Below, piece after piece: positions 4,084 through 60,274 of a stretch of DNA of 64,000 nucleotides. Origin of the DNA: Pegea sp. RAD2-039 (Eukaryota > Chordata > Thaliacea > Salpida > Salpidae). Numbering within the stretch: the first letter of the stretch is position 1; each line of letters opens with the position of its first letter. Location of the stretch: assembly GCA_034620365.1 (NCBI GenBank), contig JAQGEQ010000377.1, forward strand, positions 1-64,000, written 5' to 3'. The position numbers were made by a program, and so were the translations under genes. Under the pieces are notes generated by a model. That model had not been told where the DNA came from and searched no databases. It saw nothing but the letters and a program-made list of their open reading frames with translations.

Positions 4084-4168
4084 ATGAAGAGAAGAATTGA
4101 TGAAGATGCGATTGAAACTCAATTTATTCCAGCTCAGAATAAAGCACATAAGAGTAACGCAAGAGAAG
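4084..4168 (+). CDS. Candidate first exon, unrecognised
   Basis: An ATG opens 28 codons (beginning MKRRIDEDAIETQFIPAQ) that end at a GTAATA donor. Composition and codon use look like coding sequence, but I find no convincing following exon. It lies between array 1 and the right inverted arm. Confidence 0.3.
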
Positions 4169-5117
4169 GTAATAGTTAAATGACAATAATTGATCATTTA
4201 TTCATCTTCTCTCAAGTCATCTTCTTTCAAGTCACACTTTAAAAATATTGACTTTTAATCTCGAATTACAAATTTTAACAAATCAATATTTCTATAAGCT
4301 GATCAGAAAAAGTTAGTAATTAATAGAATTTAATATTAATAGAAAGTTATTAGGAATTAGTTTCAATTAAAGAAGTTTTAGATTAATATGTCTTTACGAA
4401 CAAAACTCAAAATTTAACTACTTTTAATTTTAAGGACTTTAAGTAATAAGGATTTGAATCATTAAGTTAACATAAAACCTTGAAAGACAATAGCCTCAAG
4501 ATTTGATGTCTTGTTTGTGGTTACTTTTTATATTTTTCTTTACTGTCGTTTTTATTATTTACAGTATTTTTTTATTGTTATCTATTATCACTCGATTTGT
4601 TGTGATGTTAATTAAAATATTCGAAGAGCTTTTAGTTGAAAGAATTGTATATAAGAGAATCGAATAAAGAAATAGTTTTTAATAATTAAATAAATTCCAA
4701 TTGAAACAATTAGTTACTTGCTAAACTGCCCTTTTAAGAAATTTACTTTTATCGCAGCTTTCTATGTCAACAAGATACTTTTCAATTAACTTCATTTTTT
4801 CTTGCTAGACATACTATCTGATTTAATCTGGATCCCCAACTAGAAAACAGACGTTGCTATTTATGATTTGTTAAACGTATTTTGATATAAAAATTTATTT
4901 AATTAATTACTTCAAGGAAACGTTGATATGTCAACAGGATTGTTTAAAAAGCAAGTTTTGTAATAATGAAAATAAAACTATAAAAATCTAAATGTAAGTA
5001 ATCTCTTTTACATTTTAGTATTTTCTAAATTATTATATTTGTGTTAATGCATAAACGATATAAAGGCTATTTTGTCAATATATTGAGAAAAATCAACTAC
5101 AGAATAAAATGAAAATT

Positions 5118-7954: not shown

Positions 7955-8648
7955 GTGAAAAAAGTGAAAAAGACATTTTGGTAGAAAGTGATAAAGACAA
8001 TTTCGTAGAAAGTGAAAAAGACATTATGGTAGAAAGTGAAAAAGGCAAATTAGTAGAAATTGAAAAAGACATTTTGGTAGAAAGTGAAAAAAGCATTTTG
8101 GTAGAAAGTGAAAAAGACAATTTGGTTGAAAGTGAAAAAGACAATTTGGAAAAAAGTGAAAAAAACATTTTCGTAGAAAGTGAAAAAGACAATTTAGTAG
8201 AAAGTGAAAAAGGCATTTTGGTAGAAAGTGAAAAAAACATTTTCGTAGAAAGTGAAAAAGACATTTTCGTAGAAAGTGAAAAAGACATTTTGGTAGAAAG
8301 TGATAAAGACAATTTCGTAGAAAGTGAAAAAGACAATTTAGTAGAAAGTGAAAAAGACATTTTGGTAGAAAGTGAAAAATACAATTTCGTAAAAAGTGAA
8401 AAAGACATTTTGGTAGAAAGTGAAAAAGGCATTTTGGTAGAAAGTGAAAAAAGCATTTTGGTAGAAAGTGAAAAAGACAATTTCGTCAAAAGTGAAAAAA
8501 GCATTTTGGTAGAAAGTGAAAAAGACAATTTCGTCAAAAGTGAAAAAAGCATTTTGGTAGAAAGTGAAAAAGGCATTTTGGTAGAAAGTGAAAAAGACAA
8601 TTTCGTAGAAAGTGAAAAAGACAATTTTGTAGAAAGTGAAAAAGATTT
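7955..8648 (+). repeat. 24-bp minisatellite array 2 (about 29 units)
   Basis: This has the same 24-bp unit as array 1, with additional variants (AAAGGC and AAAAGC in place of AAAGAC). The sense frame is open from 7,978 to 8,676, and the antisense frame is open too. The array ends directly at the duplicated tract TTTCTATGTCAAC. Confidence 0.95.
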
Positions 8649-12700: not shown

Positions 12701-12790
12701 TTTTAAACATAAATTGTTTATATAAATCAACTCATTCATTTATATAACATCAACAGTTGGTAGATTTCCAAAAATTGCTGATTGCATCAA
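9750..12790. other. AT-rich region with a diverged direct duplication; no gene seen
   Basis: About 10,018-10,250 and 10,676-10,920 are diverged direct copies (shared CATCTAAAACACTTTA). A block near 11,530-11,570 (GAGCTTATGTCATATTGCAT) recurs upstream of K2 (29,785-29,815) and K3 (36,815-36,845). The upstream flank of the kelch unit therefore probably reaches this far. No coding frame is supported. Confidence 0.6.
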
Positions 12791-12791
12791 A

Positions 12792-15574: not shown

Positions 15575-16471
15575 TAAATAAATTTTACTAGTAGATTGCT
15601 GTGAAGTTTATTTTCAGTATAAAGTTGCTTTTGAGGTCGTGTTTATTTTCAGAAACATTTAGAATAAAATCAAAATGTTCTTTCATGAATATTTTCATGT
15701 TTTTTAATTGTTTGATAATTTACAAAATATATAAATTTTGTTAGAATTTAGAGATTTATTTCAATCATCAAATAAGATGTTTTATATTTGAAGTTATTTA
15801 GAAATGAAATTTCATTAAATTTTTAACAAATTTTGTGAGTAATAAGAAGGAAATTCTATGAAAGTAAAACATTTATTAACAATCTAAGATTAAAAATAAA
15901 AGAGTAAAGAATGAAGATCGCTTTTACAGAGATTCGTCTTTCTTGTATCTTCGACCATCTAACACCACATGTTATTTAATTTCATTTAGATCATTTTAAT
16001 TCATAAATTTATTCATTTTTTAAGTAGCTTTTTGAACTTGATAGATTTCTTAAATATTTTGTATCAAATTTTCAATTAATTTTTATCAACTAAACTTCTA
16101 ACAAAATGTATTGAAATTTATTATTATTTTAAATACTTTTTTAAGGTTATAAATTAAGGTTTTTCATCCAATTATAGTTTTGAAGTCAGATTTATCTTTC
16201 TATTTATCTATTAGAATTTTTAATTATATGAAACATCAGCTTAAGTTACTTTAATAAGATATATACTAATTTTATTAGTTTTATCAAGCATCGAAATAAG
16301 TTATAAGATAAACAATATGGATATATTTTCAACTTATATTTCTTAGATTATATTTGTTCAGCAGTATGTAGCAGAAACTTTATAGTATTTTTTTCAGCTG
16401 ATGTTGTTATCTTATAAGATTGATTAATTATTTAATATTTTTACTAATAATATTTGATCAGTAACTTCTAG
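15575..16471. other. 3' flank of K1, no gene
   Basis: The first 420 bases or so match the 3' flanks of K2 (down to about 25,560) and K3 (40,725-41,090), e.g. AAGTTGCTTTTGAGGTCGTG. The remainder is AT-rich with nothing recognisable. Confidence 0.7.
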
Positions 16472-17146
16472 AGTCTACTCTTTAGAAACTCTGCGTTTCT
16501 ACTTCGTGCGTTTCGGCTGGAACCGAAGCCTCGGCTGCCGCAGCGACCATTTGTAAAATGACTGAAGAAGAACAAAATATCGTGAGTGACGTCATTAGTT
16601 GATCGATCATAGCTATTGTGACGTCATCAGACGATTGTTAAGTGTGTTGCAAGGCGTCACCCTCAGTGTACTGATTCAACTTGGCTTTATCTTCCATTTA
16701 TTTGTGGATCAAGTTATGAATGTTTAAAGTAAGACACCGTGGTCAGATCAGGATTTAATCAAGGAGATTTGATCTGTGTAGTCGAAGTACAACGGAGCAC
16801 AGAATGGCAAGTTTGGAAATATCAAAGCAACATATTCTACAAGATTATTATTTTGTTGGAATTTTGGAACAGTTTGAAGAAACTTTACTGCTTCTAGAAC
16901 ATCTACTTCCGTCTTACTTCAAAGGTGCTGTTGGTATTTGGAAGAAAAAAAGTAGGTGGAGGTCTCTAGTAGTGATGATGTCAGTGATTGATTTGTTTTG
17001 TAGATATTCAAGACGTTCAAGTGTCGACGAAAACGAAAAACCGTCGCGAAATGAATGAAGAATCGCGGAGATATTTTCTCGAAGGACCTTTAAAATATGA
17101 GAAAATGTTTTATGATTTTACTCGAAAAATTTTTAATGAAAGATGA
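16472..17146 (+). CDS. UST-like: Uronyl/heparan sulfate 2-O-sulfotransferase-like, 3' part only
   Basis: Exons: 16,472-16,581; 16,631-16,728; 16,803-16,951; 17,004-17,146 (TGA). The last three join in phase. The translation carries family landmarks in order: LRFYFVRFG, then PQCTDSTWLYLPFICG, then YYFVGILEQFEETLLLLE with LLPSYFKGAVGIW, and a basic/aromatic C-terminus YEKMFYDFTRKIF. These match the C-terminal half of the sulfotransferase-2 family, Golgi type II membrane enzymes that transfer sulfate from PAPS to uronic acid in glycosaminoglycans. The first exon needs one base removed near 16,551-16,556 to stay in frame (a real break or a sequence error). The N-terminal half, with the membrane anchor and the 5'-phosphosulfate site, is absent. 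Upstream is the K1 flank, so this is probably a truncated copy. It is distinctly richer in GC than its surroundings. Confidence 0.65.
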
Positions 17147-18170
17147 AAATATTTCCAGATAAGTTTATCAGATGATTCAAGTTGATAACATTTGATAACT
17201 AACTTTGATAAGAGTTTATTTGCTAATCAATCCGAGTTATTTGTCCCAATTTATTATTTAAAAAAAGCAAACTGCAAAAATTCAAATCATTTTTGAGTTG
17301 AAACTTTTTGGTTTTAGATTCCAATCTCAGAGATGCTGGTCGGGTTTTGTCGAGGTAACTTTGTTTAAGATCATGTTTTTAGACTTTCACTGGAGTTTTT
17401 TTGACATCTGTATAAAATTAGATAATAATTTGTAATTATTAGAACTAATAATTAAAGTTAGTTAGTCGAGAAAGTTTAGTTGAGATTATTTTCTTTTCAT
17501 TGAATAGTAAATGATTTACAAATAAAATCTTATTATATTTCTCAATGGAAAGTTGGAAACAATAAATTTCAGCATAAATTATTCAAAATAGTTTCTTACC
17601 AGCTTAAAGTTTCATAATTCAATTTTATATTTTCTGAAGTCTCTTGTGAATGTAAATATAGAAATTTAGTTTCGAAATATTTAAAAATTTAAAAGTTGTT
17701 GGTAATTTTCTTATATTAATTTTAATCATTTAAAAAAGTAGAAAGTATTTCTAATGCAAGTTATGAAAACCAACTTCAACAATTCACATAAAAGATTGTA
17801 AATATAGAATTTTTACGATTGTTTAATTTAAGCAGGTACATCGTGCCTTTTGTCTCAACCAGGAGCTTCTAACTCAGTTTTTAATCATTACATCTCTCAT
17901 CATCTATATCAACTACAGAAAAAATTATCATTAATTGTTAAGCTCTCATTTTAAAAGAAAAATTTGTTTATTTAAAACAATAAACCCAAAGTAGAATGTC
18001 TGAAAAGATCTTGCTGGCATACCTTTTCACAAATAATATAATTATAAGATATATAAATAAGATAAAACTACAGAAAAATAGATGTAATATCTGGCATTTC
18101 GGGAAACCCTTATACAATATAACAGTGTTTTAAAAACAGTTACTTAATTGTCATAATCTATTCTGAGTTT
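17147..18170. other. AT-rich intergenic stretch, nothing recognised
   Basis: No frame, repeat or motif that I can support. Confidence 0.6.
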
Positions 18171-23870: not shown

Positions 23871-25330
23871 AGTTTAAATCTAGCTGTTTTGCTTAGCACA
23901 AGCTGGTCGCTGTTATCAAGTTAGGAAGGTAAATGAGATGTCGCTTTAAGCGTATGATTTATGAAGCCAAAAAACGTTTTTTTGCTAGTTGATAGGACTG
24001 TACTTTCTCTTTTTTTTATCAGAAAAATAATTCTTATAAAGTATACAAAGATCTTTGTAAATATTTATGCAAATATAGATCTATTTTAACTCGATAAGAA
24101 GGTATGAATTTTTCGATTAAATCCTTAACGATGTTAGTTACAAAACTAAATAAAATTAATGTCTTCGGAAAAGTTGAAAACAGAAATCCAGTCAACATCT
24201 GATAGAAACTTGTTAATGCCATCATAATTTCTACAGTAAAAAATCCTTTTGTTTGAAGTTTTAACTTTCATAAAATTTTTTTGATGTAACTTGAACTCAA
24301 TCATGTTGTGATCGCATGTCAAAGCAAAAGGTTCTTTTTGATAAACGTAGATAATGTTCTCGGGTTTTGAAGTGATGAGAAGATCCAAAGTATTATCACT
24401 AACTTGGATCGGAAAAGTAACCATCTGATATAGATTATTGGCATTGAGGAAGCTTACAAAGGCATGACTTAGAAAAGATGAAATAGTAATAACGCGAACC
24501 AAGCTAAACGATTTTCCACTAAACTTTAAGTTCGAGTAATTCTAATCAAATTTACTTAAATTAAAATCCCTAAGATATATAACTCAGGACACACAACACG
24601 CTTCAAACCCTTTCAATAAAGCCTTAACAGTAACCTCATCATTAGGTTTAGAGGGTGGTAGGTAGGTACATATAAAACGAGAAAATTTGGACTTTGAGTA
24701 ATGATAGTAGAAAGCGATATTCTACAATCCTGGAGAAATAATGTCATCGATCTAAATTCTGAAGATCGTGGATGCAAGCGATATTTTGAGAATTACAAAA
24801 ACGCCACCACCTCTATCATACAGTCTGTCACCACGCAAAACACAAAAAAGATTATCGCCAACCAGAATAAAATCAGGATATAACGGTTTCAACCAAGTTT
24901 TAGTAATAAAAACAAAAGTGAAATTTTGGGAATGCAAAAGAGCTTTCTATTGAAAAATATTGTTAATAATCGACCGTGTGTTGAAGAACATACCTAATGT
25001 GATAGAAGAAATGTCTTTTTGATGCTTGTGAGATTTTATGATGGGCTTCTGTAAGTTGATATTATGACTATTAACAGTTGTGTCCGGAGAAAGTTTAAAA
25101 AAAGAAGATGTGGGTCCAGTGGTTATATGCCAATTCCGTTTTTTTAAAAAAAAGTTTGACAATTCTCAAGGCCTATGGTAGACACCGAACTTTGAATTTG
25201 AAATCAGTTGGTTGGTCTTTTTGATTTCGGTAATATGCCGCTTTTAGAAGACACTTATTTTCTAAGCGATCATCTTCACACATATCACGTGAGACTCTAA
25301 TGCACTCGAATATTTGTCAAGCCTTAGCTT
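23871..25330 (-). mobile_element. CR1/L2-like LINE copy B, decayed fragment
   Basis: Same element as copy A in inverse orientation. Reading 25,330 down to 23,871, it covers the end of ORF1, the endonuclease (FNTRSIINN at about 24,950-25,000; TFVFITKTWLKP; GDRLYDRGGGVFV; LTCDHNMIEF at about 24,290-24,340) and the linker before the reverse transcriptase. A piece of the linker is deleted. Stops and shifts make it inactive. It sits downstream of K2 as copy A sits downstream of K1. Confidence 0.9.
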
Positions 25331-31377: not shown

Positions 31378-33400
31378 AAAAGGCCTTTGGGTCGAAAGGA
31401 AAATATTTCCCAGGAAGCTCAAGGGAAAGTAAAAAGTGTGGACGTTCTGTTACCCAGAAAATTGCATCTGGGGAACGCGGTCAGTGTTTAAACCCAAAAA
31501 TCTGTTTATATAATAAGTAGATTACTTCTAAAAACTTTCTGAATTTAAAGGCAAGTCTTTATTCCGACTATACCCTTCCCATGCATCCATCAACCAATCA
31601 GAGGTGAAAAGATGTTCCAATACAAAAGTAGAATATGGAAACGTTTGTATTTAAATAAAATCATTTGATATCAGGTTGTCGGTGGAACAGCTGGTCTAGT
31701 TGGAGTGAATGCAATACAACATGCTCGATATCCGAAGTTTACAGAACAAGAAGCAAATTATGCTTTTGGTGGAAAACAGGAAATGATTGCTCAGGAAGCT
31801 CAAGAGAAAGAAATGTGTGGACGTGTCTGTTGCCCAGAAAATTGTGTCTGAGGACCGTGGTCAGTCTATGGGCAATATCCAATAACATGGAGAAGTGGAA
31901 ACCACACCACATCAAGACCAATTTAAAACCTGCTAAGTGTGGAGGGAATCCTTCACTGGACCAACAAGTAAAAAAAAAGCATGGGGACAATGAAGCAGTT
32001 ATGATAAGTGCTCACTTACTTGTGGATCTGGATCACACAGCAGACAAAGAAAAATTACGAGAGATGCTAGCTGTGGTGGAGCCGCTTGTCTTAGTCCAAC
32101 GACGCAAACAAAAAAACTGCAACACACAGTGCTGTAAAGAATTTTGTGTATTAAGTCAATGGGGAAGTTTTGGTGCTTGTTCAGCTTGTTGTGGTGAAGG
32201 AGTGAGGCTGAGGTCCCGAAAAATAATTCGTTCGGCAAAATGTGGAGAAAAACCTTGTAGTAGTGACAGAAAAGAAAGTATGCCATGTAACGAGAGATGT
32301 TGCCCAGTTGATTGTAGTTGGGGTGAATGGGGATTGTATGACAGCTGCTCAGTTTTTGTGGTGATGGAGTTCAAGTCTGTAGTAGAAGAAAGATGCAGGA
32401 ATCAAAATTTGGAGGTAATCAATGTTTAGGATCTAAGGATGATTATATTGACTGCTACAATTGTTCTCCGGGTAATTGTATTGTCCGGGTAAACTGGGTA
32501 GTTATTGACACTTTATGTGATTCTAGTGGTGTAGGATTAATAAATTGAAGAACAACCATTGAAACTGAAGAGTCTTGTGATGAGCAAACATGTTACGGTC
32601 CGTCAACCGACAAACAATCATGTAATACTCAATATTGTGCAGTTAACAGTCAATGGACTGAATGCAACAAGTTTGACTTATGCTCAAAAACATGAAAACG
32701 GAACAAAATCAAGATCAAGAACAATCCAAGTTGTAGTATTACGCGGAGGAGAAAGCATTGAAAGTGAATACACAGAATTTACATCCTGTAATATGGGTGT
32801 TTTTCGGTTGATTATCAATGGTTAATTTAGACGAACTTTGGAAGCTTTTCAAAATCATGTGGATCAGGACAAGAAAGTAGAAGCTGTAACATAAAAGTAG
32901 AAGAACAATGTTGTGGTGCTGTATATGAAGGAAATGATGTTGGTACTAGAAGATGCAACACACAGTGTTGTGCTGTTGATTGTCAATGGAGTGAGTGCGA
33001 AGATTTTGAGCCATATTCAGTGTCTTTTCCTAGAGGAAAATCTCATTCAAGAACTGTTCAGATTGCTGCAAGATGTGGAGGTAAATTATGTCAACGGTCA
33101 TCTACAAGTTTCTTACCTTTCAATACTCAATGGTGTGCTGTTGACTGTAAATGGACGAATTGGAGTAAATTGTAGTAAATTGTAACAGTGCGGGGACAAT
33201 AGAGTAGTTACAATCAGTTTTCTCTTACTTTTGAATCTGGATCACTAAGCAGAAATATTACGAGAAAAGCTAGATGTGGTGGAGCCGCTTGTGTTGGTCC
33301 AAATAAACCAACAATAACAGTGTTGTGCTATTGATTGTCGATGGAGTGAGTGGGGAGTTTTTGAACAATGTTCATGTAAAACAGGATTCATCCGTCTTTT
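31378..33400 (+). pseudogene. Multi-domain thrombospondin type-1 (TSP1) pseudogene 1
   Basis: At least six TSP1-like units follow one another, each with the W-x-x-W / C-S-x-T-C-G-x-G / R-x-R / C-N-T-Q-C-C pattern. Examples are WNSWSSWSECNTTC (from about 31,680), SYDKCSLTCGSGSHSRQRK (about 31,990-32,060), SQWGSFGACSACCGEGVRL (about 32,155-32,215) and CCPVDCSWGEWGLYDSCS (about 32,300-32,350). The units lie in different frames and several tryptophan codons have become stops. A short extra relic at about 31,400-31,495 repeats the CPENC linker region. TSP1 repeats occur in secreted adhesion and matrix proteins, but no signal peptide or intact frame is left here. An acceptor-like ATATCAG precedes the first full unit at about 31,668. 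Confidence 0.8.
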
Positions 33401-42189: not shown

Positions 42190-42978
42190 AAGATCGATTT
42201 CAAAACCTACCAAGTGTGGAGGTCCTTGCACTGGATCAACAATTCAAACAAACATTTTTCTCGGGTGGTTGCTGTCCAATTGACTGTGTGTGGGGACAAT
42301 GGAGCAGTTACGATCAGTGCTTACTTACATTTGGATCTGGATCACAAAGCAGACAAAGAAATATTACGAGAGAAGCTAGCTGTGGTGCAGCCGCTTGTGT
42401 TGGTCCAAATACACAAGCAACAACCTGCAACACACAGTGCTGTTCTGTTGATTGTCAATAGAGTGAGTGGGGAGTTTTTGAACCATTTTCAGTGTCTTGT
42501 GGTAAAGGAAAGAAATCTCGTTCAAGAACTGTTCAGATTGCTACAAGTTGTGTAGGTGAATTATGTCAAGGGTCATCTACAAGTGTCTTATCTTGTAATA
42601 CTCAATGTTGTGCTGTTGACTGTAAATGGACATATTGGAGTAAATTTAGAGTCATTAAAAGATTATTGGAATGGGATTACACTCTAGACAGAGGCGAATC
42701 GCTACGATTGCAAGTTGTCAGAACAAATCATGCCAAGGAGCAAACAACAACACCAGATCCTGTAACAGTGAATGTTGTAAGGTTGATTATTATTGGACAG
42801 ACTGAACTGCATGGCAAGGGTAGTTTATTTTATATTTGAATTAGCAACTATAAACATTAATCTCAAAATAAAAAGATTTTATACAACTTGTGGCACTGGC
42901 AAGCAAAAACATTTTCGTAAAATCAAAAATGAGGCAAGTTGTGGTGGTAATGCATGTGAGGGGGAATGTGTTCGATAG
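42190..42978 (+). pseudogene. TSP1-repeat pseudogene 2
   Basis: The first unit is intact (GCCPIDCVWGQWSSYDQC, then GSGSQSRQRNITREASCG, CNTQCC). The next would read CQWSEWG but has TAG in place of the first W codon (42,459-42,461), then continues FSVSCGKGKKSRSRTVQIA to CNTQCCAVDC. A third unit follows after a frameshift (HSRQRRIATIASCQ, CNSECC), again with a W-to-stop change (WTD-stop-TAW). A donor GTAGTT after that and a partial fourth unit (TCGTGKQKHFRKIKNEASCG) suggest an intron of about 60 nt. It ends in CVR-stop, fused to kelch 3'-flank-like sequence at about 42,978. Confidence 0.8.
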
Positions 42979-45225: not shown

Positions 45226-47327
45226 GCACAAATCATGTTGATGCACTTTCTGAGACTTTCTCTAAATGTGTGTATACTTATTTATATAAGTAAAATTAAA
45301 AGAGAAAAATTATTTTTTCTTCTGTCACTCGTATTTATTAAAAAATTTATTCAACATCTGTTTTTAAAAACACTAGTATACAGATTACATTGGTTAAAAA
45401 GTTTCATCGGGTATTTTTACAGTGAGAGTAACTTATAATGAGCTTCTGTAAGCTTTCTTATTCACAAGTTTTAGTAGTTGTAACTATTTAACTGTTTGTC
45501 ATTTTCAAAATTAAGAACCAAAAATACAGAAATATAATCAAGAAATTAAGAACCAAAAATAATGAACTTTAATCAAGAAAGTAAGAACTAAAATAACAAC
45601 AAAATAAAAACTAAATTAATAACTACAAAATGTTTTATATAATTAAATCGTAAAATGGATATTTTTAAATATGAAAAAATATTTTTGATAAAGTATTTAG
45701 CGAATAGAATACTTATAAAGAAGGTTTACCTTTCAAAAATTGCCATATTTCGAAAACGTTTGAAGTATTTGCTAAGCAGTATATCAATGTTCACTCTGAT
45801 CAGTTTCAAAAAATGAAATAAAAGGATTTCTTGAAAAAGTAAGTTGTTTTTACTAACTCTGAATGTTTATAATTATAACTTTTAAATGTGCATTCTTGTA
45901 GACAAAATTGTTAAACAACAACATATTATTTTTAGCTCTCAAAAAACATTTACCATCTACTGGAAAAGTTATTTTTAATTCTACTTTTATAAAATTAGTT
46001 ATGGTTTTTATAATATAAATAACACAATTTTACAAGAAATTACAACAATGGTTTTAGAAATTTATGTGTCTTTTTGAAATTTTTTATCACTGACAACCGG
46101 ATGTTTATTTCTCTCAGCACCACATTATTGGTGTTTTACGATACATTGATATATTTTACTATCACAAAATCTACCGATTTTAATCTTTATAACTATCAAC
46201 CGTCTACACATTTTTGAATCCGTTAAAGACGAAACAGCAATATAACCATACTCTGAGTTAAGTAATAAATACCCACCAGTTAGCTCAACTGCATTCAATT
46301 TTGTAACAAACAACTTTTTCATACTTAGTTGTTTGTGAAAGCTTCAATGCATTCAATTAACTTATCTGACTTCTAATGTCAAATATCTATACAAATTTTC
46401 TAAAGTCAAACAATTTTCTAAACAATTTAACTTTTTATGGTTAAATTTTGTTCAAAATTTATAATAATAGATCATACTTCTACATTTTATAAAGTTAATG
46501 ACTACAATACGGCAAAAATTTCTTCATAAATTTCTTCATAAATTTATCCGAAACAGAATAACACCATTACTCAATATTTAGCTTTCTACAGCTGAATTGG
46601 CCTTTACTTGACGCAAGAATGGTCGTTAACTCTTTCCTAATAATTTGCTAATAAAACTACAAAGAAAATCACTTGATGCAAAAGTGCTTCAACTCTACCA
46701 AAAAAACTGTTCATGCTCTCCTACATCATCAAACATCTATAGCATTAAAGTCTATATCTTCATTAGCTAAACTTCATTCTTAACAGGGTAATATCAGTCA
46801 TCTTAGAAAGTTATCATTAAATAGAGATATAGATTTAGTATAAATTAGTATAACATAAAAGATAATAAATGAATTTAGCTGACAAAACAACGCAACTTTA
46901 GTAGAAAATGACAGAGACTGCCAGCTGAAGGTGAACATAAGGGTGGTTTGTAAGACTACTGTTTAATTTTAGCATTCAATGGTAGTTTTCATTTTACCTG
47001 AAAAACAACTAAAACTTAAAGTTTGGTTAATAGTTAGAATCTGCTATAAATAAAATCAATGATATTAATGTATTTTTTATTACTATTCCATAAGACTCTG
47101 TTTCAAAATCATAATACAAGGGTTTTTTTAAGTTAACTATTTACCCGTGGATATCTAAATACATATTATTTAGTAGCAGAATTTGTTTTAAATTCAATAA
47201 TATAACCTTTGATCTATCTTTGCTCTTCAAAACAAAAAATTACTGAAAGTTTTTGTATTTATCAAAAAACAAAAAGATCTTACAGCTGGACCAATATCTT
47301 TTGTAGCATATTTATTTTCTAAATTAG
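45226..47327. other. AT-rich region, one unassigned antisense frame
   Basis: A minus-strand frame at 46,322-46,125 (65 aa; GGYLLLNSEYGYIAVSS, VIKIKIGRFCDSKIY) has protein-like composition but no recognised family. About 46,540-46,770 is an inverse, diverged copy of about 51,110-51,300. About 46,780-47,250 is a diverged direct copy of about 48,700-49,190. The N-terminal exons expected for the downstream deadenylase were not found here. Confidence 0.5.
46125..46322 (-). CDS. Unassigned open frame, 65 aa
   Basis: Starts ATG (MKKLFVTKLNAVELTGGY), ends TAA, and has mixed, non-repetitive composition with two cysteines (MCRRLIV, RFCDSKIYQC). It could be an exon of an unknown gene or chance in AT-rich DNA. 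No splice or homology support. Confidence 0.2.
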   Translation of the reverse strand: MKKLFVTKLNAVELTGGYLLLNSEYGYIAVSSLTDSKMCRRLIVIKIKIGRFCDSKIYQCIVKHQ

Positions 47328-48284
47328 TATGTTATTGCAATTTCAATTTCCGGTTCAACATCAGGTATGTAGAAATGATTTACATAATTTTTTAATGTAA
47401 TAGTTGTAGAATCAAAACCAGTAAATCTCTTAATGTGTGTACAGACAAAATGCAAGCTGCCGAAAGTCTATAGAGTTTCTTCAAAAAAATGGCGGAATTA
47501 ATTTTGATGTGCTTCCAGTTGTTGGAGTGCATATGGAAGACTTTAGAAAATTTGCTGTTGAGGCAAAGCTTTTCTATAACGATTCTAACACATTTATAGT
47601 GTTCCACGGGTATATATATTTTAGTTGATTCAATTAATTATTGATTACTTTAATCCCATAATATATACAAAGAAAACTAAGCTTACAAAATAAAATTGCA
47701 AATTTTACCAGGCAATACGACATTTTCTTCCTGCTAAAAGCCATTGCAAGATCACTTCCGGCTAGTAGAGAAGAGTCACAAATCCTAATTCGTTCAGTTT
47801 TTGGAAAGATATTTGATTTGAAGTACATGCTTTTACACGATGATAATGTAAGTTTTGATGTCTGTAAAATATATCGTGATTTTTAACAATTAGTTAAAAT
47901 CTTAGCGCAAAGGGTATGGATTACAAAGACTAGCTGATGAATTAAATGTTTCTCGGATTGGTACTGCACATTCTGCTGGTAGTGATAGCAGTTTGGCAGG
48001 AAGAACCTTTTTTGCCGCCCGTGATGTAAGTATACTTGCTTAAATAAAAGGTCTAAAAGTCTATATATAAGTCTACAAGTCTATATAAATTAATTGGATG
48101 CTTATTTTATAAACTCTCTTTATATTGAAAAATTTTACTTGAAAATTCAAACTTAATTTAATTTAGATTTTATTTTTGACAGATATATCATCTGTTTGGA
48201 AACGATCAAATACAAGCACACGAGTTGAAGATTGCTGGTTATGATTCATTTTGTTTTACAAATGGCAAACATTGTTATTATTAG
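47328..48284 (+). CDS. CNOT7/8-like: CAF1-type deadenylase (CNOT7/8-like), 5 exons, N-terminus missing
   Basis: Exons: 47,328-47,364; 47,445-47,609; 47,712-47,847; 47,906-48,025; 48,183-48,284 (TAG). All phases agree. The translation follows the family: [66 protein letters not shown] and [20 protein letters not shown]1 enzymes are DEDDh 3' exonucleases of the CCR4-NOT complex that shorten mRNA poly(A) tails in the cytoplasm. Three catalytic positions can be seen: the D in QYDI, the H in TAHSAG and the D in GSDSS. The D-x-E motif lies N-terminal to this part and is not found upstream. The gene is either truncated or its first exons are too diverged to spot. It differs strongly from the usually well-conserved family, so it is a divergent paralogue or a young pseudogene. 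Confidence 0.75.
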
Positions 48285-49886
48285 TTAAAATATTTTACTT
48301 TTGTATGTTAATAAATTGTTGTGTGATCTTTATTCTATAGCGTTTGATTTATTATTAAAATACTCTTAAGAGTAAATTGTTATTATTACCATTATTTAAA
48401 AATCTGATTAGATTTATTTACTTTGAAAGTTGAAAGTATGTTTACTTTTAATAATTTAAAGGAAATTAAAACAAAATTATTAAAAAAGTGGCTTGTAGTG
48501 ACTTATTATTTATTGTTTTTTTAACATTTGATTCTATATGCAAAATAATGTTATATTCATAATCTAAGAAAGCAGATATCGATAGAGATTGCTTAGTTAA
48601 ATGTCATCTGATAGTCATAAAAGGCAAAAACTCTCTGTATATCGTTAAGACTGTATCAAATTGCATAATAGTAAAATTACTGTTTAAAATTAACAGATAA
48701 CCTTTTAACGAGGAATAATTAAGAAGAAGTTAAAAGTTTTACAAAAGAATAACGTCAGTTATCTTAATAAATTTTTAATTGATAAATATATATCTCTACT
48801 GAAAAGTTCTACTATAATTGATAATCAATCAAATTAACTGACAGAACAACGCAATTTTAAAAGTAAATGACAGAATACACACAACTGATGGTGTAGATAT
48901 AGGCAAATTTGTAACAGCATTTTTTAAATTTGTAACTAAGAAATAGATTTTAATCTCCGGAGAACCGATGACAACTCAACATTTCATTTATACTTAGATA
49001 CAACTTTAAGTTAAATGACTGTTTTTATTTTATTTTCAAAAGCAATTGCATTAGGCTCATGTTAAAAACTAATAAACTTAGTAATAAACGGTTTCTTAAT
49101 GTTAATTACTTAGTCATAGCAATGATTAAAAATTCAATAAAGTGAAATTTGATCTATCGTTGTTTTTTCAACAAAATATTTAAAAATTGCTTTATAACAT
49201 TTTAAGTAACTGTTAACTGTTGTACGCTTGCATATGTTCTAAATAATTTACGGAATTGCAAAGATAAAAAATGATCAGAAAATAGAAGAATGAAGATGGT
49301 ATTTGTTGTACTTACTGTTTCATCCAACTATAATTTAGGTGGAATGTGAATACATAAGTTAGTTACAATTAATTTAGAGAAATTGTTTTCTGTATATACT
49401 ATTGGATGATATTTAAGAAAAGTATTTTTAGCGGTGATTGCATTAATTATAGAAGTGGTTTTATTGCGATTTATGTCCCTTATTATAAGACAGAAGTGTA
49501 CATATTTAGTAAAAATAATCAACAAACTTTTTTTTAAAAATAAAATTGTACTGTACTAATGAGATCATGCATCAAAAATCTTCAAAAGCTTTAAAAAGTT
49601 TTTAAACGTTAAAATTTTGAAAAAATCTCACCAGATACTTTTTAACTTACATTAAATGACGTCAATTACTATGTCATCTGATACCATCTTATTTTATTTT
49701 TGTCAAAGATCTACAGATATAAAGATAAGTTGCTTTGCTTACATCACTTCATTATGATCTTTAACAAAACAACTTTAATAATATTTTCTTATATTTCTTT
49801 TTACACCAGGCAGTATCTCTTAAAGTAGTTGAATTTAGTTACTAATTCGAGTCTATAATTTTATTAACAATCAACAAATTTTATAG
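48285..49886. other. 3' flank of the CAF1-like gene, duplicated AT-rich sequence
   Basis: About 48,700-49,190 is a diverged direct copy of about 46,780-47,250 (shared GACA.AACAACGCAA.TTT and TTTGATCTATC.TTG tracts), so the gene is flanked by repeats. No further gene is supported. Confidence 0.6.
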
Positions 49887-49998
49887 AGGTACATTAAATA
49901 TACTTGGATTTGATGAACATATTGTAAAAACAGCTGACAAATTAAATACATTCTATTTGTTATTGCAAACTGCTTTGTTTGAAAACTCAGCTTGGTAA
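49887..49998 (+). CDS. Possible terminal exon, unrecognised
   Basis: After an acceptor TTTTATAG a frame reads GTLNILGFDEHIVKTADKL, then NTFYLLLQTALFENSAW, then TAA: 36 sense codons with protein-like composition. No upstream partner exon identified. Confidence 0.2.
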
Positions 49999-52549
49999 AT
50001 GTTATGATTAAATGAATTAACAAACATATATATGTATAAATGTTTGCCTTTCAGTTTAGATAGGTAAATATTATCTTATTGAACTTCTTTTTACAAAAAG
50101 TAATATTTATTTGTTCACTGAAATCTTTATATTACATAATCTTTATGGGTTTTTTTGTTAAAATCTCAACGTAAAAAACTGCTGTAGCTATTATCAGAAA
50201 CTTATGGTTGAAAAATAAAAGAAATTATGATAGCTTTATTCAAAACTTTATTAAAGTTAAAATTAACTTATTCTTGTATCTGCTAAAATCATTTGTTAAT
50301 AGAGCAAATGGAGTTATCTAATTGACTTTTTTTGGTCTAAAAATAGTTTCTTTCCTTAAAAGCAATCACTTTTGCTTATCAAAACAAAAAAGGGCAAGAT
50401 ATGAAAAATATAAATATAACAATGCAAAAAATAATTTCATTTATACTTAGAGTGTATTATAAGTAAAATAAGTTTCATTAATATATTTTTCATTATTATA
50501 TGCGTTAGACTCAGTCGAATACAAATTGGTAAACTGTTCTTATCAGTTTTTATGAAGCAGAATGCTTTTCGTAATGATGACTTTTATACGTATGTCTCAA
50601 TACCTTAACAATGCACTTAGTTGTAGTCGTTTGCTGTACAAGTCAGTCCCAGTCTTGTTCTGATTTTATTATCATCTTGATGTTTAAGGAAGAAGTAGCT
50701 ATTGAAAGGTGACTAGCAAGAGCATTCATTAGAATAAGAATTGAAATGGAAACTTCAGTTTACGGGTGTAGGACCAAGTACTTCTTAGTAATCAATGGTG
50801 ACTTCACAACTTTTTATTTTAAATTTACACAAAACCATTTTTCAGCGACTTTCGGCAGAATGTTATTGAATCAGCTGCATTAAACCTGCTACAGATGGCG
50901 CTGAAGAGTTATTATATTCGATATGCTGCATCAAATTACAGTATATAAAATCACAACCTAAATATGAACTCAGCACTTCAGCATAAGTAGCACATTTTCA
51001 TTCGATTGCTTAAAAAAGCGCGTCTCATTTGTCGAGTACAACTCTAGTTTGTCTATTTTGCCAAAATTTTCATGACGTTTCGTCGTTCAATAAAAGTAGC
51101 TGATGAAAATAGGAATTAAAAAACGTCTGGTGATGTAAGAGAGCATAAGTAGGTTTTCTGGTAAGGCTGAAGCTAAAGTTGTCTTCATTTTAATTTAGTT
51201 TGCAAAATTCTAGGACCGAATTAATAGACATACAACAGTCAAGTAATAAACCATTAAGTTGTAGAAAGCTAAATGTTTAGTAATGGTTTTATTTTGTTTA
51301 GGATTGTTGCTGAAATTGCAGTCATTAAATGTATACGATGAAGAGGTCTTTTATGTTAGAGTTCAAAACAATTGTGAAATCAAAAAAAACTGTATTTTAT
51401 GATGAATTTTACGAAAGTACAAAACTTTTATAAATACTTAACATTCTAAATCATTATAGTTAATAAAACGCTGATTCAATTTCTTAACATTTTAAAAGCC
51501 TTACAATTGTAATATTTAGTATTGAAAAAACCTTTTTGCCAACATTATATGTTCCATTTTTCATATTTCTTCAAAATCCACGCTAATTATTTTTATTAAG
51601 AAACACAACATGAAAATAAATATTTCTTTAGCTGCTTTCAAAATTTATGGAAATAATTATTTTTTATTAATAGAATCCAAGGTCAAAAACAATTAATAAT
51701 TTTTTCACGTTGGCGCATTTTTTTAGTGACCACATTTTCTACCAAAATTTTGTAAACATTAAACCAACGTTTCTAAAATGTTGTTTTAGATATCTTATCT
51801 TACTGCGATTTATTAATTCTTTTTTTTAAGTTATTACTTTATTAAAAGATTAGAAATTGTTTAGTGTATAAGTAAAAATTTCATTTAATATTTTCTTGGT
51901 GCTGCTGTACAGTCTTCATCAACAAAAATATATTTTTTGTTAAGGTTCTATTTATCTATTAATTATCATGTTTCTTATAGTATTTGACCAACGTACTGTA
52001 TAAATAAAGATGAGATAAGTCACTTCAAATTTACCATTATCATAATTTAAAAATTATTATAATTTATTATAGGTGAATCAATAAACTTTTCACACAAATA
52101 GTATTTAAAAAAATTCCCTATTTGGTTTAACAAAAAACTGTTATTATTAATTCTATATCAAAAGATTTGTGATTTTTGTATAGTTTTCTTTGTTTGAAAA
52201 CTAGATTAAATGTTAGACCTAGCTATTTTTTAAATGTACTGATTCCAAAAACAACTTCCATCTTTTCATATCAGTTTTTTTTTACTTTTTTTACAATCAT
52301 ATCTAATTAATTCTGTTAGAAAAAAGAAATAACTAAAAAACCAGATTATCATCATATTACTTTTGAAATACAGCTTTTCTTTTAATTCACGTCATAAAAA
52401 AAATTATTATACTAAGTCCAATGTTTGTCAAGCAATTAATTTTGAATAATGATACCAAACTATCATCTAATTATTATCATTATAAATATAGCTTTATCTA
52501 GGACTGTGTTGTAAATCACAACATTGCTTAGTTAAAAAAACAACTAAAC
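49999..52549. other. AT-rich stretch, no gene seen
   Basis: About 51,110-51,300 matches about 46,540-46,770 in inverse orientation (GATGTAAGAGAGCATAA versus GATGTAGGAGAGCATGA). Otherwise nothing recognised. Confidence 0.5.
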
Positions 52550-55500
52550 AACAAAATACTGTCAAACGAGTAAATACAGGTGAACATCGACATATTTCCA
52601 ACTTTCAGAATTGTAGTATGAGCTCGTGTATAGGTGTATTAATCTCAGCACCAGGAGGCGCTTTCACATATAATCTTATTTTGACAATTCAACACGGTGG
52701 TTAATTGATGATTGGAACAACAATGGCGTCACCAAAAGTATGCGGAGGACTTGCTCTTGCTCATTCAGGTGAGTAACCACTTGGCTAATGACGTTTTTGA
52801 AAAGTTTGTTGCTTAAGGTTATAATTTCACAAGCTGATTTTGAGTCTTTTTGCTGTTAGAAGGCGCTTGTCACCACTGCAACATTTCTAAATGAAGTTTG
52901 AAACATATGTTCAAGGAGCTGGTCTTTTGCAGGTAATATTCACGTGATGGAACCTTCTCGAGTTTAATTTGTCAGTTTTAGGTAGTGGAGTACTTGGAGT
53001 TTTTGAAAACTTTTCGAATCGAACTCATTCAAATATTGATTATAAGATCACAACCAAGAAAAAACTCTTTAATCTCACCAAGTATTTAATAGATGTTTGT
53101 ATTATTAACAACAATTTGATCACTTTGTAAATTTTGTGAAAATTCACTTTTTTATTTCAGAAAAGCTTTAAAAAATATTGCAGAAACCGTCACAGAACAT
53201 AACGTAATATCCGTATGAAGTGCCAGTAAAAGTAGCCCTTGCCTAACCACTCTTGGTGCTCCAAGAAGGACCAGTCCTCATTTTATTGGTTTGTTGTTGT
53301 CATTTTGTTAAAACCATCTTCTGATTTGAAGATTAAGGTATTGGGTCCAGGCTAATACCTGAGATAATGACCACTGAGTACTCTTAAAAGGACGAAATAC
53401 TGTCAAACGTGTGAATAAAGTTGAACATCGACATATTTCCAACTTACAGAATTGCAGTATGACTTGTCTATAGGTGTATTAATCTCAGCACCAGGTGGCG
53501 CTATCACATATAATCGTAGTTTGACAATTTGACACGGTGGTCAATTGATGATAGGAACAACAATGGCGTCACCAAACGATTGCAGAAGACTTGGTCTAGT
53601 TCATTCAGGTAAGTAACCACTTGGCTAATGACATGTTTGAACAGTTTGTTGGTTAAGCTTAAAAATTCATAAGTGGATTTTGAGTCTTTTTGCTGTTAGA
53701 AGGCGCTTGTCACCACTGCAACATTTCTAAGAAGAAGTTTGAAACATATGTTCAAGGAGCTGGTCTTCTGCAGGTAATATTTACGTGATGGAACATTTTC
53801 GAGTTTAACTTGTCAGTTTTAGGTGGTGGAGTGCTTGGAGTTTTTGAAAAATATTCGAATCGAATTGATTCAAATTTTGATTATAAGATCACAACCAAGA
53901 ATAAACACTTTAATCTCACCAAGTATTTCATTTATGTCTAAAATAGAGAAGTATAGATGTCATCTAGAACTCTTAGCTACAGAGAAGGTTGTCATTGGCC
54001 AAACCAAGGGTACGCTTTATTAACAACAATTTGATCAATTTATAAATTGTCTGAAAATTCACTTTTTTGTTTCAGAAAACCTTTCAAAGATATTGCAGAG
54101 GCCATCACAGAACATAACTTAATATTCGTATGAAGTACTGGTAAAAGCAGCCCTTGCCTAACCACTCTTGGTGACCCCAAGAAGGACCAGCCCTGATGTT
54201 ATTAGTTTTCATTGTCGTTTTGTTAAAACCATCTTCTGATTTGAAGTTTAAGGTATTGGGGCCAGGCTATTACTTGAGATGATGACCTCTGAGTACTCTT
54301 TAACGGACAAAATACTGTCAAAGGTGTAAATACAGGTGAACATCGACATATTTCCAACTTTCAGAATTGTAGTATGAGCTCGTCTATAGGTGTATTAATC
54401 TCAGTACCAGTTGGCGCTTTCACATATAATCTTATTTTGACAATTCGACACGGTGGTTAATTGATGATTGGAACAACAAGGGCGTCACCAAAAGATTGAA
54501 GAGGACTTGCTCTAGTTCATTTAGGTGACTAACCACTTGGCTAATGACGTATTTGAACAGTTTGTTGGTTAAGATTATAATTTCATAAGCTGATTTTGAG
54601 TCTATCTGCTGTTTAAAAGGTGCTGGTCACCACTGCAACATTTCTAAAAAGAAGTGTAAGACTTATGTTTAAGGAAATGGTTTTCTGCACGTTATATTCA
54701 CGTGATGGAACCTTCTCGAGTCTAAATTGTCAGTTTTAGGTGGTGGAGTGCTTGGAGTTTTTGAAAAACATTCGAATCGAACTCATTCAAATATTGATTT
54801 TAAGATCACAACCAAGAATAAACAATTTAATCTCACCAAGTATTTAACTTATGTCTAAAATAGAGAAGTATAGATGTCATCTAGAACTCTTAACTACGAA
54901 AAAGCTTGTCATTGGCTAAACCAAGAGTACGTTTTGTTAACAACAATTGGATCACTTTGTAAGATGTCTGAAAATTCACTTTTTATGTCAGAAAATCTTA
55001 AAAAGATTTTGCAGAAACCGTCAAAGAAAATTACTTAATATTTGTATGAAGTTCCGGTAAAAGCAGCCATTGCCTAACCATTCTTGGTACCCCAGGAAGG
55101 AACAGTCCTAATATTATTGGTTTTTATTGTCGTTTTGGTTAAACCATCTTCAGATTTGAAGTTTAAGGTGTTGGGGCCTGGCTATCACCCGAGATGAGGA
55201 CCACTGAGTACTCTTTAACGGACAAAATACTGTCAAACGAGTAAATACAGGTGAACATTGACATGTTTCCATCTTTCAGAATTGTAGTATGAGCTGGTCT
55301 ATAGGTGTATTAATCTCAGCACCAGTTGGCGCTTTCACAAATAATCTTATTTTGACAATTCGACACAGTGGTTAATTGATGATTTGAACAACAATGGCGT
55401 CACCAAAAGTATGCGGAGGACTTGCTCTTGTTCATTCTGGTGAGTAACCGCTTGGCTAATGACGTTTTTGAAAAGTTTGTTGGTTAAGGTTATAATTTCA

Positions 55501-57200
55501 TTAGCTGATTTTGAGTCTTTTTGCTGTTAGAAGGCGCTTGTCAACACTGCAACATTTCTAAATGAAGTTTGAAACATATGTTCAAGGAGCTGGTCTTCTG
55601 CACGTTATATTCACGTGATGGAACCTTCTCGAGTCTAACTTGTCAGTTTTAGGTGATGGAGTACTTGGAATTTTTGAAAAACATTCGAATCGAATTGATT
55701 CAAATATTGATTTTAAGATCACAAAAAAGACAAAACACTTTAATCTCACCAAGTATTTAATAGATGTCTGTATTATTAACAACAATTTGATCATTTTGTA
55801 AATTGTCTGAAAATTCACTTTTTATTTCAGAAAAGTCTTAAAAGATTTTGCAGAAACCATCACAGAACATAACGTAATATCCGTATGAAGTACCAGTAAA
55901 AGTAGCCCTTACCTAACCACTATTGGTGCCCCAGGAAGGACCAGTCCTGATGTTATTGGTTTGTTGTTGTCATTTTGTTAAAACAATCTTCTGATTTGAA
56001 GTTTAAGTTGTAGGGTCCTGGCTATTACCTTAGATAATGACCACTGAGTACTCTTTAAAGGACAAAATACTGTCAAACGAGTAAATACAGGTGAACATCG
56101 ACATATTTCCAACTTTCAGAATTGCAGTATGACTTGTCTATAGGTGTATTAATCTCAGCACCAGGTGGCGCTATCACATATAATCGTAGTTTGACAATTC
56201 GACACGGTGGTCAATTGATGATTGGAACAACAATGGCGTCACCAAACGATTGCAGAAGACTTGGTCTAGTTCATTCAGGTAACTAACCACTTGGCTAATG
56301 ACATGTTTGAACAGTTTGTTGGTTAAGCTTAAAAATTCATAAGTGGATTTTGAGTCTATTTGCTCTTTAGAAGGCGCTGGTCACCACTGCAACTTTCCTA
56401 AAAAGAATTTTGAAGCATATGAGCAAGGAGCTGGTCTTTTATAGGTAATATTTACGTGATGGAACCTTCTTGAGTTTAACTTGTCAGTTCTAGCTGGTGG
56501 AGTGCTTGGAGTTTTTGAAAAACATTCGAATCGAATTGATTCAAATTTTGATTATAAGATCACAACCAAGAATAAACAATTTAATCTCACCAAGTATTTA
56601 ATTTATGTCTAAAATAGAGAAGTATAGATGTCATCTAGAACTCTTAGCTACGGAGAAGGTTGTCATTGGCCAAACCAAGGGTACGCTTTATTAACAACAA
56701 TTTGATCAATTTATAAATTGTCTGAAAATTCACTTTTTTGTTTCAGAAAACCTTTCAAAAATATTGCAGAAGCCGTCACAGAACATAACTTAATATTCGT
56801 ATGAAGTACTGGTAAAAGCAGCCCTTGCCTAACCACTCATGGTGACCCCAAGAAGGACCAGTCCTGATGTTATTAGTTTTCATTGTCGTTTTGTTAAAAC
56901 CATCTTCTGATTTGAAGTTTAAGGTATTGGGGCCAGGCTATTACTTGAGATGATGACCTCTGAGTACTTTTAAAAGGACAAAATACTGTCAAACTTGTAA
57001 ATACAGGTGAACAACGACATATTTCCAACTTTCAGAATTGCTGTATAAACTCGTCTATAGGTGTATTAATCTCAGTACCAGTTGGCGCTTTCACATATAA
57101 TCTTATTTTGACAATTCGACACGGTGGTCAATTGATGATTGGGACAACAATGGCGTCACCAAACGATTGTGGTAGACCTGCTCTAGTTCATTAAGGTGAC
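52550..57200 (+). repeat. Tandem array of six 0.84-0.92 kb monomers in order A-B-C-A-B-C
   Basis: Monomers start near 52,555 (A), 53,393 (B), 54,303 (C), 55,218 (A), 56,058 (B) and 56,976 (C, cut off at about 57,200). The spacings are 838, 910, 915, 840 and 918 bp. A monomers lack a segment of about 75 bp (ATGTCTAAAATAGAGAAG...) present in B and C. A copies share TGCGGAGGACTTGCTCTTG, B copies share GATTGCAGAAGACTTGGTC and C copies share a worn splice donor. Corresponding monomers three steps apart are the most alike, giving a higher-order unit of about 2.67 kb. Every monomer contains the same exon-intron layout of an unrecognised gene. Confidence 0.92.
53474..54122 (+). CDS. Unrecognised gene in monomer B1, four exons, open throughout
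   Basis: Exons: 53,474-53,608; 53,700-53,773; 53,823-54,009; 54,076-54,122 (TAA). Phases agree at every junction (1, 0, 1), giving 146 codons, or about 118 from the in-frame ATG (ATGATTGG). The protein contains VLISAPGGAITYNRSLTIRH, GGQLMIGTTMASPNDCRRLG, a C-H-H-C motif (EGACHHCNISKKKF), GAGLLQVVECLEFLKNIRIE and ATEKVVIGQTK, ending ILQRPSQNIT. I do not know this family. The other monomers carry the same exons with stops or shifts: TAA for CAA in exon 1 of A and C, a shift in exon 2 of A, and TAG for CAG plus a stop in exon 3 of B2. B1 is therefore the only candidate for a working copy. Confidence 0.45.
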
Positions 57201-57635
57201 TAACCTCTTGGATAAAACTAATATCTTGGATATTACTATGATTTAGAGATTTATAATTTTGAAGTTAATTGTATTAATTATATATAAATTTTGTGTAAAA
57301 CATTAACAAAACACTATTTTGAAAAATTGTATTCAGGTTTTACATTACAGAACCTTAACACCAAATTATATTTAAGATTAAATTTAGTATATATATTTAT
57401 TTTTTTGTGGATACCAATTGGTGGGCATTAAATTAACATTTTCGTTAATGGTTTACTTCTGTTTGAACAAAGCTATAGATGATATTCTATTTGAATAAAT
57501 ACTTATAAATTATGATAAATTTACTTTTAATAAGTGATTTGTATATTATATATATACTATAAATTGTGGTTGGTGACAGTAAAAATCTTTTATAAAAACT
57601 ATGTTGGGTACACATAACACTACCAAAACCTTATG
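57201..57635. other. AT-rich spacer between the monomer array and LINE copy F
   Basis: No gene or repeat recognised. The array breaks off inside a C monomer shortly after its exon 1 donor. Confidence 0.5.
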
Positions 57636-58878
57636 ATCGAATATAAAGAAAATTCCTGATAAACCGATTTCATCAAAACAAGCTTGATATGGCAGTTCCA
57701 ATTTCTCAATAAAATTTGCTCTGGTAAAGATCCAGCAATAGAATGCATCAAATGCCTCTCCTTGTTTTTTCGCACTTGTAGTGATGTGAGCAAAAAATGT
57801 ACGATATATGTGATACTAGCCAGAAAAAGCAATTGGTATTTAAATGGTTCTGCATTAAATGTAGAACCATGGACACTACTGCTCCCTTATCTAATTCTAA
57901 TCAAAACCTATTATCCGACATCAGAAAATCGGTAGCTGCTGAATTAACCAAATTTAAATCATAAATTGGCAAAGATGTTGCCAAGATCGATGAGAAAATC
58001 TCTAGTTTGTCTAAGTCAATGGACAAACTGGATGCCTCTTCAAAGAAACAAGTCACATGGGCCTCGGTGGTCCGTGATTCCGGTTCCGACATAAATGCTA
58101 ACATGGTGCAGCTTCTTGTCAAGAAGGTCACCGACAAGCACATAAAACTCACTGTAGACCATGAGGACAAAAAAATATAGAAATTTAGACCGTGAGGAGA
58201 TAGAAAACAATGTGATCATATTTCATGTCTATGAGACTGATAAAGATGATGACAGTAAGTTTTTTAATCAAATGTGCTCTCAAAGACTTGATTTTGTGGA
58301 CTTTACAAAGGTATAAATGACTAGAATTGGAGTAAAATGCTCAGATCATCAAAGACCGTTGAAAGTGTCCTCTCAAGTAAATTGGAAGAAAAGCATTATA
58401 AGCTAAGGCTTGACAAATATTCGAGCGCATTAGAGTAGCACATGATTTGTGTGAAGTTGATCGCTTAGAAAATAAGCAACTTCAAAACGAGGCGTATAAC
58501 CAAAATCAGAAGGAACAACCAACTGATTTCAAATACAAAGTTTGAGGTTCAACATAGGCATTGAGAATTGTCAAATATTTTTGAAAAAGTAGAAGTGGAA
58601 AATTGGACCTTCTACTTTTTTTTTCAAATTTTCTCCGCACACAACTGTGAATAACCAAGATATTAATCTACAGAAGCCTATCATCAAATCTCACAAGCAT
58701 CAAAAATGCAATTTTTATATCACATCATGTATGCGCTTCAACGCACGGTCGATTATTAACAAAATTTTCAATTGAAAGTTCTTTTGCATTCTCATGATTT
58801 AACTTTTTTGTTTATTACTGAAACTTGGTTGAAACCGTTGTATCCTGATTTGTTTTTCTGGTTGACGGTAATCTTTCT
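57636..58878 (+). mobile_element. LINE copy F, 5' part (ORF1 and start of endonuclease)
   Basis: Contains the zinc-finger half (IECIKCLSLFFRTCSDVSKK), the coil (KIDEKISSLSKSMDKLDAS), the region before ENNVIIF, and the endonuclease start (ETWLKPLYPD). Multiple stops. It ends abruptly at the codons for VDGNL, where the inserted block begins. Confidence 0.88.
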
Positions 58879-60274
58879 GTATGTCAAAGTCGCTCGCGTT
58901 GTTAAAAAAAATTAACCGTTATAATATTGCCATTTCTGAACTATGATTTTTTTCTCTCTTTTGTATTATAAACATTCCATGTAATTGTTCACTGTTATAT
59001 GCCTTTAGTAGTATTGATATACCATGTGTTACTCTATTACTTTTTAAATTTTTTACTAAATAGATGCTATTTGTAAAAATAGATATTAGAAAGAGGTACT
59101 ATCTTCAGCTACTCTCCTTCGCATTTATTAAAATAAATGAATAAAATAAACATATAAATTAGCTGCTTGACTATTAAGAAAAGTTTGATTTATAAGATTT
59201 ATCTGTTTAGCCATTTACAGTTAATTAAAAAATTTAAAATCTCTGATATTTTATTTGATTTCAGGATAATTATTTTTATTAATTAATGCTATTAATGATT
59301 TTATTGAAAGTAAGATTTATAGCATAATGGCTAAGTAAAATCCATTAGAGTTAATTAAAAACTTATAAGGGCGTGTATATTGTTGTCGCTGTGTTGTGAT
59401 TTATTCTGCAAGCTCTCTACCTAGACATTGACTAATGCTCGGAAAAATTCGGCAACTTTAATAATAAGGCTGTTTACTTAAACTATGACGGAGGTTTTAA
59501 TTGTACTTGTAAAAATGGCTATACTGGTAATGGTACCCCATGTACTGGTTAGGTAATTTAAAACCACAAACCAGGTGAACACTTTTGTGTGTGAAACAGT
59601 CTTATTGAAATGAATTCTTAAAATGATAAAGTTTTAAATAAAAATAAGTAAGCAGTAAACTAAAATTACTAGAATGATACTACATATACATTTGTTGTTT
59701 TATTAGGAATACAAAATGATTAGAAATCAGTTTAGAAAAAAGATCATGAGGTAAGCTACAAGTGATGACTGTTTTGAATTAAATGGAAGGATTTTGAACA
59801 TCAGGCCAAGAATAGATATTAGGAGTTCTCAAGACACGAAATAAATGATAAATTGATCATTTTTATCATAACCCCGGAAGAAAACAGCTCCAATGTTTGA
59901 TATTTCAGCAAAGATACCAGCACTCTAAATATCAATAGTGGTTGTGTACTTTGTAGCTCCAAACAATATATCTGGTAGTCTGTTTAATAAAGAAACTATT
60001 GTAGATGTAAACTTTTAGACAGGAACACACATGGACCTCGCCATTCTAATATCAGCAATTTTTAAATCGCCAATTTTATTGAATTATAAATTTGATGGTT
60101 TCAATTCGCGATGTAGAATCTCTTTACTATGACAAAACTCTAAGCCTTTTAACAACTGAAGCATTGTTGAACGTGCAACGGCAGCTTCTATTGGAAAACC
60201 ACAGGTTCGAAAATACTTTCTCAAATCTTGCTTAATATATTCAAAAACTAAAAGCATTCTTGTTTCATTCTGAT
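58879..60274. other. Block replacing about 340 bp of LINE F
   Basis: Between the two LINE parts, about 1.4 kb of unrelated sequence replaces the middle of the endonuclease. It carries an EGF relic and a kinase pseudogene. The right junction falls in CGTTTAA, shared by both sequences, as expected for a microhomology join. Bases 58,880-59,400 show nothing recognisable. Confidence 0.7.
59424..59555 (+). pseudogene. Calcium-binding EGF-like domain relic
   Basis: Reads DID-stop-CSEKFGNFNNKA, then YLNYDGGFNCTCKNGYTG, NGTPCTG and a stop. This matches the cbEGF pattern D-I-D-E-C ... G-x-F-x-C-x-C-x-x-G-Y-x-G-x-G-x-x-C, with the first Glu codon changed to TAA and two mid-domain cysteines lost. It looks like one exon of an extracellular multi-EGF protein, now dead. 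Confidence 0.7.

Follow-up and report, generated by a model that had tools for sequence, protein, structure and literature searches.

Examples of gene-derived tandem repeats and higher-order satellites are, respectively, the Stellate/Su(Ste) arrays of Drosophila and the higher-order repeats (HORs) of alpha satellite. The array described here lies at 52550-57205 of the window, the whole stretch of 64,000 nucleotides that was analysed (positions 1 to 64,000 of contig JAQGEQ010000377.1 of Pegea sp. RAD2-039). Like those systems, it is built of tandem units whose several monomer types recur in a set order, and it bears a sign of unequal exchange. It differs from them in being very short, with two incomplete turns of a trimer, in the mixed monomer orders that are present at other loci, and in having no function known here. 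Sequence comparison traces its monomer to a stretch of exons and introns from the gene for tripeptidyl peptidase II (TPP2; an S8 subtilase, peptidase family S8). The array is thus a satellite built from gene sequence rather than a new protein family. The array is very probably a non-coding fragment of a TPP2 pseudogene that was expanded by exchange and copied together with its flanks.

The array and its flanks are described on the plus strand. Five full TPP2-derived monomers of 840-916 bp are followed by a 229-bp stub in the order A-B-C-A-B-stub: A1 (52550-53390, 841 bp), B1 (53391-54305, 915 bp), C1 (54306-55220, 915 bp), A2 (55221-56060, 840 bp), B2 (56061-56976, 916 bp) and the terminal stub (56977-57205). 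An earlier note had described six monomers in the order A-B-C-A-B-C. The array and its trimer hold up, both in the identities and in a lag of ~2.67 kb, and the sixth monomer proves to be the stub, the type of which is uncertain. Specifically, the separation of 11-mers peaks at ~2,670 bp (1,106 pairs), compared with 615, 595 and 277 pairs near 910, 1750 and 840 bp, and this dominant lag indicates that the trimer is real. The pairwise identities that the earlier note had proposed as a check agree: A1-A2 (92.6%) and B1-B2 (95.7%) are more alike than any of the eight full-monomer pairs of different type (87.6-89.0%), so that, as in HORs, monomers of one type are closer to each other than to their neighbours. 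The C pair is weak, because the stub is nearly as close to B2 (91.7%) as to C1 (92.6%), and its assignment to type C is correspondingly tentative. Both A-type monomers lack ~75 bp containing almost the whole of one exon, SYGEASHWPNQG. In a tree of monomers, A1 (subclade A'') clusters with the A monomer that comes second at other loci, and A2 (subclade A') with the one that comes first. Since these subclades recur at other loci, the two trimers are not simply the product of one recent duplication. The maximum period of 500 in Tandem Repeats Finder placed the array outside the range of that program, and scans of the window for Rfam families (at the gathering score) and tRNAs returned no matches. 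Two other tandem arrays, of a 24-bp repeat, occupy window positions 2126-3425 and 7961-8645 (54.2 and 28.5 copies, respectively); their unit, when translated, gives an octapeptide such as KDILVESE, with several frames open on both strands.

The source gene was identified within the assembly itself (105.7 Mb, 387 contigs), which was searched at the DNA level. The unit returned at least 57 matches on at least 34 contigs, with 40 of 61 candidates scored, and the copies on contigs C43, C65 and C106 were more diverged. Reading two of these diverged copies suggested TPP2, and the assembly was accordingly searched for the Pfam domain TPPII (PF12580). All three matches fall at 274.2-274.9 kb of contig C19, and two of the 12 assembly matches to Peptidase_S8 (PF00082) lie just upstream, at 272.1-273.1 kb of the same contig. 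Each monomer aligns with this C19 gene at 78-81% nucleotide identity, across exons and introns alike, from position 1350 to ~2300 of the C19 segment. The C19 exons in that matching interval join into an open segment of 220 aa, which matches Pfam Peptidase_S8 (E 3.1e-29) and, in the PDB, TPP2 entry 3lxu (E 2.9e-61; the next subtilase ~1e-11), which we take to be the Drosophila protein. In a tblastn search, the C19 segment found pieces of itself in all five full monomers and in the stub (best E 1.6e-33), interrupted by stops and frame changes, and 20 shuffled C19-segment proteins gave no matches at 1e-3. The gene and protein family that the earlier note did not recognise is thus identified as TPP2 by the C19 alignment, the 3lxu match and the tblastn search. 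The case is carried by these comparisons of the whole unit and not by a lone exon: one A1 exon, with its stop written as X, placed TPP2 third in the PDB (E 0.05) after two unrelated chains, and its match to Pfam Peptidase_S8 fell below the cut-off (E 0.014; an unrelated family scored 0.028).

The monomers follow TPP2 in exon order, at most splice sites, and in the stretch of protein that surrounds the GTSM serine. They differ from it in being broken, with this serine codon changed, stops and frameshifts introduced, and an exon end lost along with its splice donor. The extent of the damage was assessed in 94 monomers longer than 780 bp, cut from 39 regions (loci L009-L046 and the window) with shorter pieces dropped; near-identical contigs (C349/C350 and C155/C323) were counted apart and the duplicate loci L001-L008 left out. 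These monomers stem from 32 of the 39 regions, with none from L028, L029, L030, L032, L044, L045 and L046. The GTSM serine is the catalytic serine in S8 subtilases, and an active member of the family would be expected to have it. Its codon is TCA in C19 and ACA (Thr) in 94 of 94 monomers. Just as uniformly, the VSS codons contain a stop, and only 2-3 aligned bases are left of the 25-base WSSRGP exon end and its splice donor. Frame changes relative to the C19 segment are also found in the window monomers.

Nor do the codon positions show any sign of purifying selection, as far as sequence divergence can tell, in the TPP2 frame or in the frame of a four-exon gene model that the earlier note had proposed. 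Monomer pairs are not independent and no significance is claimed for these figures: divergence at positions 1/2/3 is 0.204/0.202/0.183 between C19 and the monomers (introns 0.171) and 0.132/0.121/0.097 among the window monomers (introns 0.086), and in the frame of the four-exon model, diversity across the 94 monomers is 0.119/0.090/0.120, with position 2 somewhat lower, vs 0.083 outside that frame. Neither frame shows the excess of substitution at third positions that would point to the coding signal sought by the earlier note. Exon-derived positions are more variable than introns, which counts against our explanation; we read this, provisionally, as decay of GC-richer exon sequence. Presumably, no product is made from the array.

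The earlier note had nonetheless viewed each monomer as a gene-like unit of four exons with GT-AG introns and a C-H-H-C motif. A living family of genes for a small CHHC protein, with B1 as its working copy, would account for the fact that B1 is, as that note stated, open through all four exons (117 aa), with the GT and AG dinucleotides present at all three introns. However, B1 is the sole monomer of 94 in which the model is open, and the boundaries of all four exons, scored with strict sequence patterns, are kept in 2 of 94, so that not every monomer is a gene-like unit. The GT-AG introns are real in the sense that the source gene, TPP2, has them. The second intron of the model and both boundaries of the third coincide with TPP2 introns; the first uses the TPP2 donor but not the TPP2 acceptor, which is altered in B1 and sits ~44 bases upstream of the acceptor in the model; and the third exon spans a tandem-duplication junction at 53909. 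As for the motif, the C19 gene reads VKKALVTTAAFQKNIETFAQGAGLLQ where the B1 model shows C-H-H-C. The peptide EGACHHCNIS is a frameshifted reading of TPP2 VKKALVTTAA: with one base missing from B1 before it and two extra bases after it, the stretch leaves the frame of TPP2 VKKALVTTAAFQKN, to which the later KKFETYVQGAGLLQVVECLEFLK returns. A zinc-binding CHHC protein would be expected to conserve its motif in frame, and here the motif lies outside the TPP2 frame in a model open in that single monomer. The profile search suggested for the B1 translation yielded one Pfam match, below the cut-off (E 0.18), and nothing in the PDB with an E of 1 or less; what can be recognised in the 117-aa peptide is TPP2 (E 2e-13 in comparison with the C19 segment). 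Together with the frame figures, which do not indicate constraint, these results led us to reject the coding potential of B1, and we give a working CHHC gene family almost no credence.

Other loci of the assembly form a series between the source gene and the arrays. On C106 and C43 there is one unit in gene order (the C43 copy begins slightly inside the unit), and on C65 the first part of the unit is present twice, as a dimer with an internal deletion. The comparison covered four of the five loci fetched from these contigs (L028, L030, L031 and L032, with L029 left out), and all four have the same rearranged tail order: the C19 segment up to 2544, then ~3817-4170, then from ~3015-3030 on. This common tail indicates that the four loci descend from one rearranged pseudogene. 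On C43 the pseudogene is adjoined by a gene for a CAF1-family ribonuclease (L030, ~3830-4500; Pfam CAF1, E 1.7e-11).

The tandem-duplication junction is likewise present outside the arrays. At 53055-53090, in A1, the TPP2 exon end ITTK... is joined to the intron preceding exon SYGEASHWPNQG, and the same junction recurs near 53909 (B1), 54826 (C1), 55739 (A2) and 56580 (B2) as well as in the C65 dimer. The dimer junction, ACCAAGAAAAAACACTTTAATC, is the array junction ACCAAGAATAAACACTTTAATC at 53909, and it is lacking from the compared copies on C106 and C43. Its partner sites share only a few bases, so that the founding duplication looks illegitimate.

Later changes in monomer number appear to have been of a different kind. 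A locus on C306 matches the window at 99% identity to either side but is missing precisely A1 and B1 (1,756 bp), and the switch point falls inside ~57 bp that are identical in both monomers. This points to homologous exchange as the source of the two-monomer difference, although five single positions beyond the switch, where the first C306 monomer equals A1 rather than C1, count against it. At another locus, on C310 (L021, 3202-7141), a run of A monomers includes three that are nearly identical, as left by a local expansion. Distances are graded: 0.171 between monomer introns and the C19 gene, a mean of 0.107 between types within a locus (112 pairs), and a mean of 0.044 when monomers of one type are compared across loci (871 pairs, with types labelled by nearest reference, a few of which, e.g. 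L009_m4, differ from the tree). This gradient suggests that the pseudogene came first, then the array, and then its dispersal.

We therefore propose the following course of events, the order and the mechanism of which we infer from these comparisons. A duplicate of the host TPP2 gene would have become a pseudogene, losing the GTSM serine codon, gaining a stop, and losing the WSSRGP end with its donor. A segment of ~0.9 kb, bounded by the intron that precedes exon SYGEASHWPNQG and by the exon that closes with ITTKNK, would then have been tandemly duplicated between sites of little homology. Homologous unequal exchange may subsequently have lengthened and shortened the array, giving rise to diverged types and to the A-B-C-A-B-stub order seen here. 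Finally, the array and its flanks would have been copied within larger segments, leaving pieces on at least 30 other small contigs.

The flanks bear on this last step. At least 30 other small contigs, 14-55 kb long, carry pieces of the array, a count that uncollapsed haplotypes may inflate. On the left (51174-52549), 28 of the 39 regions, window included, have the edge of the array in common. On the right (57206-59678), the flank is common to other array loci at ~95-98% identity, and the right array end is of two common types, shared by 20 (window included) and 9 of the 39 regions, the stub of the window belonging to the first. Such sharing could also arise if the array were a tandem repeat inside a mobile element that had captured a TPP2 fragment and spread it. 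Copies on small contigs do have a sharp left edge in common, at 51174, where several derived copies change to one of two other outer flanks, so that at least two outer flanks differ from that of the window, and many right-flank matches stop near 59678. Position 51174 is an edge in some copies only, however. The outer flank of the window runs unbroken across it at C350, C349, C184, C310 and C124, and also at C106, where identity is 91% over window positions 47327-51508. Because this continuity extends to C106, a contig with a single copy, the window keeps the older arrangement, and the unbroken flank across 51174 makes a mobile element improbable in our view. Moreover, each outer flank is common to several loci, which segmental duplication fits better than independent insertion; there are two frequent right ends; the right flank contains a piece of a host gene; and inspection by eye revealed no inverted repeat at the 51174 and 59678 ends. 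Dispersal of the array and its flanks thus fits segmental duplication.

Other features of the window and its surroundings are varied. Within the shared right flank, an EGF-like fragment with a stop is present at 59424-59550 (EGF_CA, E 3.2e-5, just under the cut-off), and a LINE-like stretch was noted near 57870-58500 by eye only. A Kelch-repeat ORF lies at 15095-15574 (Pfam Kelch_1, E 2.1e-24), and sequence related to 10000-17500 is found on C14, C81, C97, C116 and other contigs. Thrombospondin type 1 fragments at 31659-32429 and 42462-42839, both with Pfam TSP_1 above the cut-off and TSP1_spondin below it, are apparently pieces of a multi-domain gene. On the minus strand, 24146-24541 weakly resembles an endonuclease-reverse transcriptase domain, with an E value (0.001) below the cut-off.

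The higher-order pattern and the many loci might also be expected of an array serving a chromosome function, as a centromere-like or heterochromatin satellite, or yielding small RNAs against TPP2. But long homogeneous arrays were not found, either in the window or in the 38 other regions, which hold 0-6 full monomers each in mixed orders, and divergence of the monomers from the C19 gene (~20%) is judged poor for small-RNA targeting. Both roles seem highly improbable to us. A more speculative possibility, to which we attach modest weight at most and which we consider rather doubtful, is that the arrays mark a repeat-amplifying compartment (supernumerary, sex-linked or other) that gathers and multiplies broken pieces of host genes, and that the TPP2 series is a stepwise record of satellite birth there. 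Those portions of the literature on TPP2 and gene-derived satellites, pseudogenes, and B-chromosome gene fragments that were available to us describe no comparable array.

In our reading, then, the array is a satellite of an ordinary, gene-derived kind, the history of which can be followed unusually well. Its recognition removes a false protein family from view. It also provides, in one assembly, a case of satellite birth in which the source gene, single pseudogenes, a dimer that carries the founding junction, and arrays differing by whole monomers can be set side by side.
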